A stretch of DNA of 23,956 nucleotides. It comes from Baffinella frigidus (lineage: Eukaryota > Cryptophyceae > Cryptomonadales > Baffinellaceae). Of this stretch, positions 4,922 through 19,900 are shown piece by piece (positions within the stretch are counted from its first letter, which is position 1; each line of letters starts with the position of its first letter). Under the pieces are notes generated by a model. That model made no database searches and had not been told where the DNA came from. It worked only from the letters and a program-made list of their open reading frames with translations. The stretch is taken from NCBI GenBank assembly GCA_026770585.1, contig MU646628.1, forward strand, positions 170,303 to 194,258. Direction: 5' to 3'. The translations under genes were made by a program, and so were the position numbers.

Positions 4922-7900
4922 TCACTTCTTGGCCGCTGCAGCCTCTCCGTGGTGAGTTTCCCGCACGCGATGTGCCTGGTGTTTGGTGTTTGGTGTTTGG
5001 TGCTTGGGGTTTAGGGTTTAGGGTTTAGGGTTCAGGGTTCAGGGTTCAGGGGTTGAAAGTTCCGGGTCCGGGGTGGTCCTGGTTCCGGGAAGGCTTCGGG
5101 TTTCGAGTTTCGGGTTTCGGGTTTCGGGTTTCGGGTTTCGGGTTTTGGGGGTTTCGGGGTTCTCGGGGTTCTCGGGGTTCTCGGGTTTCTCGGGTTCTCG
5201 GGTTTCGGGTTCCGGGTTCCGGGTTTCGGGTTTCGGGTTTCGGGTTTCGGGTTTCGGGTTCCGGGTTTCGGGTTTCGGGTTTCATGCACCTGGGCGAGCT
5301 TCTGTTTGTTGCGAACGCGGTTGTTGTAGCACCCAAGCAGGGTCTGCGTGCCCATCGGCCTCTCCTTTCGAACCTAGAATCAACACACAGGTTATGGTTA
5401 ATAACTTGAGGGTCAGGGTTTTGGGTTTGGGGTAACACTCCTTTCGAACCTTGGGAGGAGGAAACACACAGGACTGGTTAAGGGTTTAGTGTTTAGGTTT
5501 TTGGGTTTAGGGTTTAGGGGTTAGAGTGTAGGGTTGTTGTAGCATCCGAGCAGGGTTTGCGTGCTACTGGAAAGCCCCAGGGGAAGTTTCAAAAAGTTCG
5601 CGACACTCTGGTGTCGCATACGTTTGAGCCATTTTCTCCTCAAAAGGCAATTTTCACCCCAAGGACGTGACCAAAATTCGTCAAAAGGTAACCTACAAGT
5701 AATTTTAGTGTGGTGTCCAAGAATTTTGAGACTTCCTCTGTGGCTTTGCAGTAGTGCCCATCAGTCGCTCCTTCCGTACCTGCGTGGGTGAGAGGGTCTA
5801 GGGTTTAGGGTTTAGGGTTGAGGGGTCAGGGTGTAGACTGTAGGGTGTAGGGGTTGGGGTTCAGGGTTCGGGGTTTAGGGTTTAGGGTTTAGGGTTTGGA
5901 GTTTAGGGTTTGGGTTTAGGGTTTAGGGTTTAGGGTTTAGGGTTCAGGGTTTAGGGTTTAATGTTTAGGGTTTAGGGTTCAGGGTGCAGGGTTTAGGGTT
6001 CAGGGTTTAGGGTTTAGGGTTTAGGGTTCAGGGTTTAGGGCTTAGGGTTTTGCGGGGGTTTACCGGGCCGTTGTTGAAGATGAGGTCAAAGCCGCCGACC
6101 TGGTTTAGGGGTTAGGGTTTAGCGTTTAGGGGTCAGTGTTTAGGGTTTAGGGTTTGGATTTCGCGTTGAGGAGTTCGTGTTTTGGGCTTTGGGTTTCGGG
6201 ATGACGTTTCGGACTACGTTTCGGTGGGTTGGGGTTCGGGGTTCGGGGTATGGGGTTCGGGTTTAGGGCTTAATTTACATTCTCCTCACGGCCAGTCATA
6301 TTTTTGTCGAGTTTGGGTTTTCGGTTTTAGGGGTTTATGGGTTTAAGGTTTAGGAGGGTTTAACGTGTACGGTTTAGGGGTTATCTGGCCTGGTCCTCGC
6401 GGCCAGTCATCTTCTTCTCCATGTCTTTAGGGGGTTCGGGTTTCGGGTTTCGGGTTTCGGGTTTCGGGTTTCGGGTTTCGGGTTTCGGGTTTCGGGTTTC
6501 GGGTTTCGGGTTTCGGGTTTAGGGTTCGTTTTTGGGGGTTATCAGACCTGGTCCTCGCGGCCAGTCATCTTTTTCTCCATGTCCACGATGTCCGTCATGT
6601 CTTCCAGCATCCCCACCTGATGTCAGGTTTTATTACTGATTTATTTATTATTATTATTTATTATTCGTCATTTATCATTTATCATTTCATCATTGAAGTT
6701 GATCATTTATCATTTATCATTTATTACTTGTTGTTTATTGTTTATTGTTTATTGCTTGGGGTTGATATCATCCGGGAACATGCTGAAACTGAAACGTTCT
6801 CCTAATCGGCATATGAGCCCTGCTCAGATTGAATTTGGGCCATAGTGAAGGTTACTTAGGGGCCCAACTAAATTTAACTAGGGGCAGAATCCCGTTTTTT
6901 GTCCATGTCTATGGTGTCCGTCATGCCCTCTAGCATGCTCACTTGCCGGGGTGTAGGGTTTGCGGGTTTGAGGCTTTGGTGTTTGGTGTTTGGTGTTTGG
7001 TGTTTGGTGTTTTGTGTTTTGTGTTGTGTTTTGGGTTTCGGGTTTTGGGTTGTGGATTTTGGGTTTTGGGTTTTGGGTTTTGGGTTTTGGGTTTTGGGTT
7101 CTGGGTTTTGGGTTTTGGGTTTCGGTTTTTTTTTGGGGGGGGGGTTGTGTTTGTGGGTTGTTAACCTTGAGCTCGTGGTCGGCAGTGGTGTCCGACGAGA
7201 GAGACGGAGACGCGTTCACCATTTGATCGCAACAGGCGTCACCTCACACGAGGAATTATGTACATCCAGTGTATGGTCTGTACATCAGTTGTAGACAGTG
7301 TACACAGGGAAACCCTCAGCCTCTCTTCTCCGTGAAAATTGGTAAAAAGTCGACCTTGAGCTCGTGGTCCGCAGTGGTGTCTGACGAGAGAGACGGAGAC
7401 GCGTTGACCTGCGCACGTGCCAAGCGAGAATAGGTTAGTGCCTCGTCAGACTCTGTCGTATCTTCGCATTTTCTGTCAGAGCAGAGCGCTTGCAAAAAAC
7501 AACCCCCCAGAAATTGAGTTTTCAAAACTTGGAAATTCTCTCGGGACTTTTCTCTCTCAATTTCTGGGGATTTTTTTCTCGATTTCCAGAAAATGAGAAA
7601 ATTTGTGCAAGGAGTTACCTATTAAAACCACGTATAATTTCCTATGGTTCAGGGTTCAGGGTTCAGGGTTTAGGGTTTGGGGGAGGGGGCCTCGATGAGC
7701 CAGGGCTTGAGCTCGTCGTCAATCATGACATCGTACCCTCTAGCCTAGGATTCAGGGTTTCGGTTTTCGGGAACCTGAACCCGGGTTTTCGGGTACCTAA
7801 ACCCGGGTTTCGGGTACCTAAGCCCTGCACCCTGAAGCGTTACCTCGATGAGCCAGGGCTTGAGTTCGTCGTCGTCGATCATCACGTCATAGCCGTACAG

Positions 7901-16900: not shown

Positions 16901-19900
16901 AAATCCGGTCTCAGATTTTTCATTCTAAAAGTCCATTTCCTTCAGGATTCAGGCGGAAGTTTTTTAAAATTGTGTCCCGTCCTCGCTTGGCAGCGGAAGT
17001 AAACATAAATAAAAGCTTAACCAGGACCCGTTTGACCAGGACCTAAAAAAATGTTGTTTGACCAGAAAGTTTGACCAGTATTTGACCAGAAACGGAAAGG
17101 CACCTGCAAGGCCTCGGCGTGCTTGTCTTCGCGTTCCAGCTGTTTGCGCATCCGCTTCAAGTTTTTGACCATCAGGTCCTTGCGCGTGAGCTCGTAGTGG
17201 TTCCGAAAGTGGTTGACCCTCTGCTGCTCCTCCAGCCGCAACCTGTTGCCGAGTTTCGGGGTTGATTTGACTTGAACTGGTTTGAGGTTTGATTTGAATT
17301 TAGATTTGATTTGAATTGGTGTTAGGGGTTGGGGTCGGAGGTTTAGGGGGGTTGGGGTTGAGGGTTTGGTGTTTTGGGTGTGGGGGTCGTAGTGGTTTCG
17401 AAAGTGGTTGACCCTCTGCTGCTCCTCCAGCCGCAACCTGGTGCCGAATTTGATCCGTTAATCCGGGAACATGTTTAATTTAACTAGTTTTGGCAATATT
17501 ACTAGTGAAAGAATAGCATGCATGTAGTGATTTTCAATGCCGAAAGTAATTGAATTAAACACGTTCCCGGATGAGGGCGCGGGAGTGGGGTTTACGGGTT
17601 GGGGTGTGGGGTTTGGGGGGTAAAGGGCTTCGGGTTTGGGGTTCGTAGTGGTTCCGAAAATGGTTCACCTGCTGCTGCTCCTCCAGCCGCAGCCTGATGT
17701 CGAGTTTCGGGGTTGATTTGACTTGAATTGGTTTTAGGTTTGATTTGAATTTGATTTAGATTTGATTTGAATTGGTGTTATGGTTTGGGGTCGGAGGTTT
17801 CCACACGAGGCTACCTATGCGAACAGAATAAATGTCGATTGTAAACGTGTGTAGTAATTTTCAGCTGAAAAGCAGCGACTTTACACAGGTCCGACCGCTC
17901 AGCGGGCGGAAACGTGATCATTTGCCCACAAAACTTTAAAAGTTCGTTTTATTCTGTTCGCCTGGGTAGCCTCGTGTGGTTAGGGGGGTTGGGGTTGAGG
18001 GTTTGGTTTTGGGGGTGTGGGGTGCGTAGTGGTTCCGGAAATGGTTCACGCGCTGCTGCTCCTCCAGCCGCAATCTGGTGCCGTGTTTAATTAATTTTAT
18101 TATATTTTGGTAATGAAAATCATTACACATAATCAGCATAGTAGTAAGCCGCAGCCTGGTGTTGAGTTTCGGGTTTAGGATCTAGGGACACACAGCCAGG
18201 GTTTAGGGTTTAGAGGTTGGGGTGTGGGGTTTGGGGTTCGAGGTGTGGGGTGTGGGGTTTAGGATTTCGGGTTTGGGGTTGAGGATTTAGGGGGGTTCGG
18301 GGTTTCACGCGGGAGGGTCAAGCACGGGAGCAAGCTAGACCTCTATTAACACCAGAAGATAGAAAGAGGCGTCTTTTCATACCAAGAGATAGAGAGAGGA
18401 CCCTATTAACACCAACAGATAAATGGAGACCTCTATTAATGCCAGCAGCCACTCCAGGCCCTTGGGTGGGGTATTCCATGCTCGTTCTTGGAGCCGTTTG
18501 CTCGTTCTTGGAGCCGTTTTACTGCTAAAAGATGACTTTTGAGAACCATGTCCCCTGAAACAATGCCTTTTGAATACCCCCCCCTCCAGCCCTGCGTGGA
18601 TTGCGAGAGGCCCCTATCAATACCAACACGGCCGCCAATATCTGCACCCCCCCGCAGATGCTGTGTTTGAGCTGTGTTTCAGCTATCTGTTGGTGTTAAT
18701 AGAGTCCTCTCTCTATCTCTTGGTACGAATAGACGCCTCTCTCTATCTTCTGGTATTAATAGATTTTAATTAAATTGCTGGACCTCTCTCAGCGCCGAGA
18801 GAGGTCATGCAAGCGAGTACACGGTGTGTACGAAGGAGTAACTAGCTCTGTCCGAGTGAAGTTGGGCACGTCGATATTTCGCCCCCCCCCGAATTTTCAC
18901 AGGTGGATTTTGACACCTCCCCATGAAATTTACCTGTGAAATTTCGGGGGGGGGGCGAAATATTGACGTGCCCAACTTTACTCAGAAAGATCGTGGGTAC
19001 ACGGTACGAAGGGAGACAGCGTCTCACTACGTGCACCTGTCTCGCTAGGTCCTTTCGAAACCAACCCGCCTTAGAAGGGAAGTCTAGCTCTGCCTCACTC
19101 AGGTTGACCGACTATTCCCAAGTTGACATGCTGGATCTGCGGTACAAACCTGTCAACTTTGGAGCGGAAAAGAGCCCGGCCGCACCAGATTGGTTAGTCC
19201 AAATAGACTGAGACAGAGCTAGGAAGCAGGGTGGGGGGTAGGACCCGTCAAAATGTTCGCGCATCCATGGCACGTCTGCCCACACAAAATCGAACTCCGA
19301 GTCGCTCTCTGTCTCTGTCCATCTGCGTTTGGGTTTGGGGTTTGGGGTTTGGGGTTTGGGGGTTAGGGTTTCAGGGTTTAAGGGTTGAGGCGAAATCGAA
19401 CTCCGAATCGTTTTTCGTCTCCATCCCCTAGGTTTGGGTCCAGTTTTGGGGTTTTGGGGTGTAGGTTTCAGGCTGGGCCTGATCTCGCCAAAACTGGTGG
19501 AGGGAATCTCCAAGGTTGACGGATTTGTACCACGCACCCAGACTGTCAACTTGAGAATAGTCCGTGAACCCGACTGAGGTAGGGCTAGGATTTGGAGCGT
19601 GCAGCCAGCTGCTTCGCCACCTCTGCTTCGCTCCTGAAATCGATCAGCCGGATGCGGCAGAGCATGGCGGCTCGCGGTACCGATGCTTCCCCGTGCGTCG
19701 CCAGCTCTGGGAACCTGTCTCACCGACTCCGCTGCCGTGTCGGAGCGAGGTTTCTGGGCACTTCGACAGCTGGAGCCTCATCGGCGAGCGCCCCACAACT
19801 TGAACGGCTGTGTTCTGCTGAACTGATTCTGATCCGGCAGGGGTGGGGAAGAGAAGGGGTTTCCCTGAGCGCAGGGACGGTGTGGCAGAGAGCACGCTGG

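Follow-up and report, generated by a model that had tools for sequence, protein, structure and literature searches.

The window analyzed here, a stretch of 23,956 nucleotides from Baffinella frigidus, contains on the minus strand a TTLL9-like gene of 17 exons (4922..20045; start codon at 20045-20043, stop codon at 4924-4922), the exons of which match, one by one, the transcript-derived protein P0001 (432 aa, mmetsp+jgi). Fifteen of the 16 introns were mapped with GT/GC-AG boundaries and 0 mismatches to P0001; intron 5 enters a run of N in the window (813 bases), which hides 2 residues. On the plus strand, gene 2 occupies positions 20298..22622, with exon 1 extending from 20298 to about 21186.

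Further sequence copies of the TTLL9 exons, denoted echoes hereinafter, were identified in exon searches at a threshold of E<=0.05, which yielded 37 echoes, all in the sense strand. The preliminary description of this DNA placed such copies exclusively in introns next to the parent exon; this holds for 36 of the 37, the remaining one being located directly 3' of the last exon, and equal frequency of echoes far from the parent exon is not seen, with 37 of 37 adjacent at this threshold. The list of echo-bearing exons given there (E2-E8, E10-E14, E16 and, with doubt, E17) turned out to be exact, as did the number of one to six copies per exon, with the maximum of six for E5; exon searches with E1, E9 and E15 produced no echo at E<=0.05. 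Under the looser threshold of E<=0.5, 51 matches were obtained, 9 of them located elsewhere and 1 antisense in an adjacent intron. The probability of the placement of the 37 echoes by chance is about 10^-52 if they are treated as independent, which nested copies are not. The breakpoints form 26 clusters (with the two pieces of a split E16 echo counted separately), and nested arrays of echoes share common junctions. Among the direct repeats in the masked window, 88 of 109 pairs start less than 1 kb apart; of the 20 recent repeat pairs in the TTLL9 gene (>=90%, >=35 bp), 14 include exon bases and the remaining 6 are echo-echo pairs or lie within the exon 6 array. A search of the 382 Mb nuclear genome assembly of this single-celled alga, the one also searched for recurrence, with exon 12, the sole exon so queried, matched at least four places, all matches listed being in its own gene.

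All the TTLL9 features below are on the minus strand. Upstream echoes accompany exon 2 (19245..19322; echo at 19393-19426), exon 5 (13957..14062, with the 3' end in the N gap; six echoes within 14126-14785), exon 6 (11987..12057; 12241-12289, 12432-12482 and 12782-12830) and exon 8 (10549..10596; 10787-10823). Downstream echoes are found for exon 7 (11699..11764; 11545-11594 and 11184-11206), exon 10 (10057..10108; 9825-9872, 9616-9636, 9581-9600 and 9544-9563), exon 12 (8273..8356; 8067-8119, 7844-7914 and 7691-7738) and exon 17 (4922..4975; 4657-4684, in the 3' flank). Exon 11 (8956..9027) has an upstream echo at 9208-9246 and downstream echoes at 8772-8825 and 8583-8636, and exon 14 (6548..6616) has one upstream at 6896-6942 and two downstream at 6390-6425 and 6283-6308. 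Exon 4 (15689..15802) is preceded by an echo at 16152-16182 and followed by those at 15470-15532 and 15244-15318; its intron flank 15605-15696 recurs at 15080-15171, behind an element, and one echo has a hairpin element (15163-15241) at its AG|GT. For exon 3 (17104..17242), there are upstream echoes at 17387-17437, 17643-17691 and 18025-18073, and a downstream internal echo at 16746-16777. Within the span 17192..18091, a block consisting of the exon 3 edge, an echo and intron sequence (17192-17454) has a second copy, 87-90% identical in the self-alignment, the two halves of which (17643-17800 and 17980-18091) are separated by a hairpin element with inverted repeat arms (17801-17979). An element with 31-nt inverted arms (5564-5594 and 5724-5754) likewise interrupts the single upstream echo of exon 16 (5290..5373), dividing it into 5754-5779 and 5532-5564; the 4-nt overlap of the two pieces in exon range is likely a target-site duplication.

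The position of an echo predicts which edge of the exon it retains. Upstream copies keep the 5' edge, with 18 of 19 beginning within 3 nt of the first exon base and none of the 19 reaching the exon end, and downstream copies keep the 3' edge, with 15 of 18 ending no more than 2 nt from the last base. The splice dinucleotide at the kept edge is usually intact (28/33; AG in 14 of 18, GT/GC in 14 of 15), as had been noticed previously from the sequence. Nearly all copies are partial, as also described; the exception is the downstream copy of exon 13 (7355..7408) at 7166-7219, the sole copy of a complete exon in TTLL9, which is preceded by ATG instead of CAG and so has lost the acceptor. The echoes diverge from the parent exon by up to 25%, and some carry stops. 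Altogether, they cover 1584 of the 13,017 intron bases (12%), so the earlier statement that the introns are built from echoes is too strong. The suggestion that the flanking genes are alike holds for gene 2, where two short exons have local sense copies: one with three copies, near 21419-21518, 21524-21611 and 21833-21938, any of which may be the one used, and a further exon near 22404-22457 with a downstream copy at 22569-22622.

A survey of other genes, proposed in the preliminary description alongside a self-alignment of the window, revealed local echoes that obey the same rule in CCT1 and in kinesin and CCT loci. In CCT1, the spliced model of which matches P0123 without a difference over 552 aa, 5 of the 18 exons have adjacent sense echoes, 6 in total; 5 of the 6 begin at base 1 or stop no more than 1 nt from the exon end. 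These are 6 of the 12 CCT1 matches at E<=0.02, the others being 2 self-hairpins, 3 antisense matches and 1 sense match to another exon. We further examined 36 exon cores, namely 30 of 45 kinesin matches (those with loci) and 6 of 10 CCT matches; the CCT1 model accounts for the remaining four, on C94. Sense echoes were detected for 17 of these 36 cores, at least one of which (L049) resembles an echo of L042 and several of which carry stops, with 51 sense matches vs 1 antisense. Scored by exon half, 48 of the 51 sense matches come from the expected half (26:2 for upstream copies from the 5' half, 22:1 for downstream copies from the 3' half); the exon ends of the kinesin loci are unmapped. When all 10 CCT cores had been examined earlier, 4 had sense echoes and a single antisense match fell inside an exon. 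As a control, 35 exons of other genes compared to the 30 kinesin loci gave 16 matches in 1050 pairs, with the best E of 4.6e-4; a first cross-locus control (63 matches in 180 pairs) was unusable because kinesin paralogues have exons in common. In 4 of the 10 loci inspected (L032, L043, L047 and L050), the repeat exceeds its own period and overlaps the exon core, and therefore the copies abut in a true head-to-tail duplication; the L044 core is also crossed by a repeat with a 99-bp period (63% identity), left uncounted because 7-base repeats dominate there. The closest approach to abutting repeats in the window is seen in the exon 3 block and the exon 5 array.

These observations make an assembly artefact, that is, uncollapsed haplotypes or mis-joined reads, extremely improbable: although the 813-base N run makes the assembly look scaffolded, the echoes diverge by as much as a quarter from the exon, are interrupted by inserted elements and follow the same edge rule across several genes, and every exon is present once in both P0001 and P0123. 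We also consider it most unlikely that the echoes are retained for a function, for example as decoy splice sites or in splicing regulation. The mostly intact splice dinucleotide would fit such a role, but the echoes drift, some with stops and one split by an element, and local sense repeats are about equally frequent in exon cores and in non-core intervals. The same comparison (14 of 36 exon cores vs 32 of 108 other intervals, which may contain neighbouring exons and echoes) led us to reject copying specific to exons.

Exon fragments would also end up in introns under the intron-gain model of Rogers, in which an exon segment containing AGGT is tandemly duplicated to yield a new intron, the echoes being its two halves; the published accounts (PMC3443670, PMC2891723) share with the present case the entry of exon fragments into introns via tandem duplication. 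Apart from the involvement of tandem duplication as such, GT begins 17 of the 32 downstream exons, and the direct repeats at intron junctions are slightly longer than in permuted data (mean 3.5 vs 3.3, p 0.01). However, in each of the five introns that carry both kinds of echoes (E3/E4, E4/E5, E7/E8, E10/E11 and E13/E14), each echo is nearest its own exon, the opposite of the predicted order, and in permutation tests on 32 introns the predicted homology of intron ends is not significant (5' ends vs the next exon start, p 0.06; 3' ends vs the previous exon end, p 0.26). With the echo order opposite to prediction and the intron-end resemblance not significant, this model was rejected as very unlikely to apply here.

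Similarly low probability is assigned to RNA-templated copying, whereby pieces of a spliced or partly spliced transcript would be reverse-transcribed and inserted beside the source exon. In its favour is the echo at 9837..9892, in which the tail of exon 9 is fused to exon 10 without intron 9 (52/56 identical); in addition, the exon 13 copy spans the entire exon with no flank homology, several near-identical echoes end at a splice site, and an exon 12 echo extends by about 9/11 bases into the start of exon 13. Nevertheless, the exon 9-10 echo continues into intron 10, and its mismatches are concentrated at the join, resembling a repair scar; other junction-spanning matches are either weak or genuine exons beside a short stretch of similar flank; the recent copies at L043, L047 and L050 extend into the flank past the coding match; and the sense orientation and local placement of all 37 echoes are unlike those of retrocopies. 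As proof of a recent gain of intron 9, the exon 9-10 echo is ambiguous, because similar CAGG(G)T motifs flank this intron and could allow its precise deletion, and because of the clustered mismatches.

Among the 14 kinesin pairs shown, the flank beyond the coding match is near-identical over 60 nt in three (L043, L047 downstream and L050 upstream), being about as similar there as the coding part; in the other 11 it is not plainly near-identical, with some alignments reaching further. In TTLL9, anchored flank extension exceeds the 95% null, which is inflated by heptamer flanks, for 6 of 32 echoes (5 of the 18 upstream, 1 of the 14 downstream). The intron flank beside many near-identical TTLL9 echoes lacks clear homology, in particular for exon 6 (49/49 and 48/49), exon 12 (52/53) and exon 13 (51/54), and this is evidence against duplication of genomic DNA across splice junctions. 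Later insertions explain two of the flank-less cases, exon 12, where homology resumes (8114-8183 / 7986-8055), and exon 4; gene conversion or copying bounded by splice sites could be an alternative source of such echoes. Gene conversion from the exon to old duplicated fragments would maintain their similarity, so that copies look younger than their true age, in line with exon parts that are often far more similar than the adjoining intron. As a general account it appears unlikely, if less so than the alternatives above: at L043, L047 and L050 the flank keeps pace with the coding part, two exon 6 echoes are 97.7% alike over 88 nt including non-exon flank, and an initial duplication is still required.

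What is observed directly is that the echoes are adjacent and in direct orientation, follow the edge rule, recur in several genes and, at some other loci, show tandem periodicity. Together with the short distances and nested arrays, these features bear out the repeated local duplication envisaged in the preliminary description, which also rightly set this pattern apart from ordinary exon shuffling. Most probably, the echoes were left behind by small head-to-tail duplications that occurred repeatedly across splice junctions, selection having removed copies of whole exons. Each event would duplicate about 100-370 bp of genomic DNA, with one breakpoint inside the exon and a second in the intron next to it, yielding one complete exon and an adjoining fragment; since the fragment has only one splice site, splicing could continue. 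The intron would thus grow stepwise by a few hundred bases per event, open to renewed duplication and with the gene unbroken. Whole-exon copies presumably also arise and are then selected against, because the spliceosome would include them. They account for 1 of the 26 breakpoint clusters vs 54% predicted by random placement of units of the observed sizes (P about 4e-8 if independent), an expectation based on unit sizes from eight cases and exon lengths pooled from TTLL9 and CCT1. Hairpin elements and heptamer arrays would come to interrupt the surviving copies as these drift. Break repair is a plausible, inferred route, and the literature suggests that the duplications might form when staggered breaks are filled in and their ends joined.

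Intron lengthening is usually attributed to transposons. Among the papers listed in the literature searched, which excluded preprints and most subscription papers, none described this pattern as a recurrent route of intron growth; the mutation type itself is already known from single cases, and here it is seen repeatedly, both within individual genes and across several unrelated genes. In a potato RdRp gene, a single tandem duplication across an intron-exon boundary created a new intron, with splice signals coming from the parent structure (PMC4974935); the likeness is in the duplication over intron and exon edge, whereas here many events in several genes lengthened existing introns and left the exon whole. 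Fill-in by CST/Pol alpha-primase at breaks with 3' overhangs generates small, homology-independent head-to-tail duplications by end joining in human and mouse cells (PMC8355091), to which the present duplications are similar; the units of about 100-370 bp seen here would need long overhangs. The local hairpin elements in these introns recall Introners (PMC9860276); the exon echoes, unlike Introners, seem non-mobile, the exon 12 matches listed all being in their own gene. In contrast to tandem whole-exon duplication producing alternative exons, no TTLL9 echo is complete with both splice sites. Exon-edge duplication is one way in which introns can lengthen stepwise without breaking the gene. Each event leaves a datable, oriented footprint, so that intron growth becomes measurable, from its rate and unit size to the selection acting against duplicated exons, which is a natural test of exon definition.

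Besides duplication, introns here also grow by other routes, including heptamer arrays and hairpin (MITE-like) elements. Telomere-like heptamers abut the broken ends of 9 of the 37 echoes vs 29% of random intron 40-mers, so the earlier impression that copies end abruptly in such sequence reflects no enrichment over background, and telomere-like sequence was dismissed as a preferred echo end. Intron 8 (10393..10548, minus strand) is a heptamer array whose sole AG and GT are its own splice sites; on the same strand, the array-rich introns 6 (11765-11986), 9 (10109-10329) and 16 (4976-5289) contain 1, 2 and 0 inner GT and 4, 2 and 8 inner AG, respectively. Across array introns, 114 inner AG were observed vs 172 expected and 77 GT vs 68; composition and orientation explain most of this, and a general depletion of AG and GT was not upheld. 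A doubtful reading, slightly less probable than gene conversion, is that breaks within or next to exons are where introns of this genome both originate and lengthen, staggered breaks duplicating the exon edge and telomere-type heptamer arrays filling the gap, sometimes exactly at AG|GT; sense-strand (CCCTAAA)n arrays would survive because this orientation holds far fewer AG and GT, and the exon 9-10 echo would be a fossil predating a very young array intron. In the array analysis, which covered 24 of the 30 kinesin loci (6 overlapping others were left out), the heptamer arrays are strand-biased relative to the gene, with the exception of L026 (0:13), a strong regularity that could mark the gene strand in this genome.

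The minus strand of the window carries a TTLL9-type tubulin polyglutamylase gene of 17 exons (20045 to 4922), which agrees exon by exon with the 432-aa protein P0001, derived from transcripts. Fifteen of the 16 introns were mapped, all with GT or GC donors, AG acceptors and no mismatches to P0001; intron 5 enters an 813-base N gap, with two residues hidden. The DNA of the window (C322:170303-194258) is eukaryotic, and the 9.8 and 9.7 kb that flank it on its contig consist of N throughout.

Comparison of every TTLL9 exon with the whole window (cut-off E<=0.05, with a looser cut-off of E<=0.5) identified 37 additional exon copies at E<=0.05, all 37 on the sense strand. 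Of these copies (hereafter echoes), 36 are located in the intron adjoining the parent exon, the only place assigned to them in the preliminary description, and the remaining one lies directly past the last exon. The exons with echoes (2-8, 10-14, 16 and 17) are exactly those listed previously, including the doubtful exon 17. At E<=0.5, 51 matches were obtained, with 9 located elsewhere and one antisense within the adjacent intron. The echoes occupy 1584 of the 13,017 intron bases, and their breakpoints form 26 clusters. Among the echoes upstream of the parent exon, 18 of 19 begin at the first bases of the exon and none extends to its end; downstream, 15 of 18 finish at the last bases. AG is retained in 14/18 and GT/GC in 14/15, in agreement with the earlier observation that copies usually keep one splice site. 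Two further claims did not hold: the exon 13 copy is a whole exon that has lost its acceptor, so not all copies are partial, and broken ends in telomere-like sequence are found in 9 of 37 echoes, compared with 29% of random intron 40-mers. In the echo at 9837-9892, exons 9 and 10 are joined directly, intron 9 being absent, yet the echo continues into intron 10; the mismatches are concentrated at the join.

A survey of other genes for exon fragments in flanking introns, suggested in the preliminary description, was likewise positive. CCT1, an independent comparison gene elsewhere in the assembly, has a spliced genomic sequence equal to its nearest protein (P0123) over all 552 residues; its best-ranked match bearing a legible organism comes from Hemiselmis tepida, which makes the alga probably a cryptophyte. 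In this gene, 6 adjacent sense echoes derive from 5 of 18 exons. Three of the 4 upstream echoes begin at base 1 and both downstream echoes run to the final base or the one before it; 3 of these 5 keep the splice dinucleotide. Six further matches at E<=0.02, none below E 0.002, are self-hairpins, antisense or exon-exon. Among kinesin and CCT exon cores (coding matches, searched within 1.5-kb flanks), 17/36 have sense echoes, with 51 sense matches and one antisense; upstream copies favor the 5' half of the core 26:2 and downstream copies the 3' half 22:1. As a control, the kinesin loci were compared with exons from unrelated genes, which gave 16 marginal matches in 1050 pairs. The pattern is real in TTLL9, CCT1, other CCT loci and kinesin loci. 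Two short exons of the second gene of the window, which lies on the plus strand, also have sense copies nearby, as proposed earlier for the flanking genes. This gene has at least two homologs (P0121 and P0122), without a Pfam domain, among the best 8000 candidates scored, and the N-terminus encoded by its exon 20298-21186 looks, by eye, hydrophobic and signal-peptide-like. A search of the 382-Mb assembly (1364 contigs) for exon 12 of TTLL9 gave four places among the matches listed, all within TTLL9 itself.

Similarity extends at least 60 bases beyond the end of the coding match in 3 of 14 pairs inspected (kinesin loci L043, L047 downstream and L050 upstream). In 4 of 10 inspected loci, a repeat overlaps the exon core and exceeds its own period, namely L043 (204 bp, 85%), L047 (252 bp, 88%), L050 (369 bp, 93%) and L032 (253 bp, 74%). 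These repeats are head-to-tail duplications of genomic DNA; their units would cross splice junctions given that the coding match ends inside the unit, exon ends being unmapped at these loci. The earlier suggestion of repeated local duplication is supported. Local sense repeats at E<=1e-5 are present in 14/36 exon cores and 32/108 other intervals, and duplication is not confined to exons. In all 5 introns with both kinds of echo, every echo lies nearest its own exon, and the intron ends have no significant resemblance to the far exon; both observations argue against intron gain by AGGT duplication, a model covered by a review (PMC3443670) and a test (PMC2891723).

The exon 3 block 17192-17454 recurs as 17643-17800 and 17980-18091, with a hairpin element separating the halves, and an element whose inverted arms are 31 nt long splits the exon 16 echo into two pieces that share 4 nt of exon; at least some echoes are therefore neutral enough to tolerate an interruption. 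Some observations do not fit duplication of genomic DNA: many TTLL9 echoes match their exon at 94-100% identity but show no clear homology in the intron next to it (6/32 passed the extension test). In exon 12, homology resumes past a heptamer array starting a few bases from the donor, and in exon 4 past an inserted element. No later insertion could be shown to account for the non-homologous flank at exons 6, 7 and 13, where old echoes may have undergone gene conversion.

If units of the sizes observed were placed at random, 54% of events would be expected to copy a whole exon; 1 of 26 breakpoint clusters does so (P about 4e-8 if independent). The simplest reading is selection against whole-exon copies: an extra full-length exon would be included by splicing and purged, and half an exon with one splice site would be ignored by splicing and survive. 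Recurrent tandem duplication across splice boundaries, together with such purging, best explains the echoes. Tandem duplication across an intron-exon boundary is already recorded in potato (PMC4974935), fill-in with end joining is a documented source of small tandem duplications (PMC8355091), and AT repeats occur in half of 26 lineage-specific ribosomal-protein introns of a highly intron-rich chlorarachniophyte (PMC12730881). Among the papers listed by the literature searches, none described introns growing through repeated duplication of exon edges.

Arrays with 7-base periodicity make up about 22% of TTLL9 intron bases vs 2% of exon bases. On the sense strand, the telomere-type heptamers CCCTAAA and TTTAGGG occur 63:0 in TTLL9 introns, 54:1 in CCT1 and 225:25 over 24 kinesin loci, with L026 showing the opposite bias (0:13); along four stretches examined (L015-L018), array orientation switches in blocks. 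Fifteen array-rich introns contain 191 inner AG or GT in the sense strand vs 834 if inverted, and intron 10393-10548 of TTLL9 and introns 5 and 13 of L015 (the CCT1 locus) have none beyond their own splice sites. A splicing filter is a reasonable candidate cause of this strand bias. A CTACACC array (8185-8272) lies within a few bases of the exon 12 donor and is missing from the echo 8067-8119, which is followed almost directly by sequence (7986-8055) related to 8114-8183.

Several other elements were observed in the window. One echo of exon 4 carries a dispersed repeat element (15163-15243) at its AG|GT; by eye, the element begins with GT and ends near AG, in the manner of an introner. Hairpin elements are densely clustered at 2618-4909 (for example, 3454-3636, 4010-4171, 4218-4339 and 4781-4904), some of them related to one another and to 21774-21827. 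Finally, a 46-bp unit is present three times at 281-419 with 96% matches.
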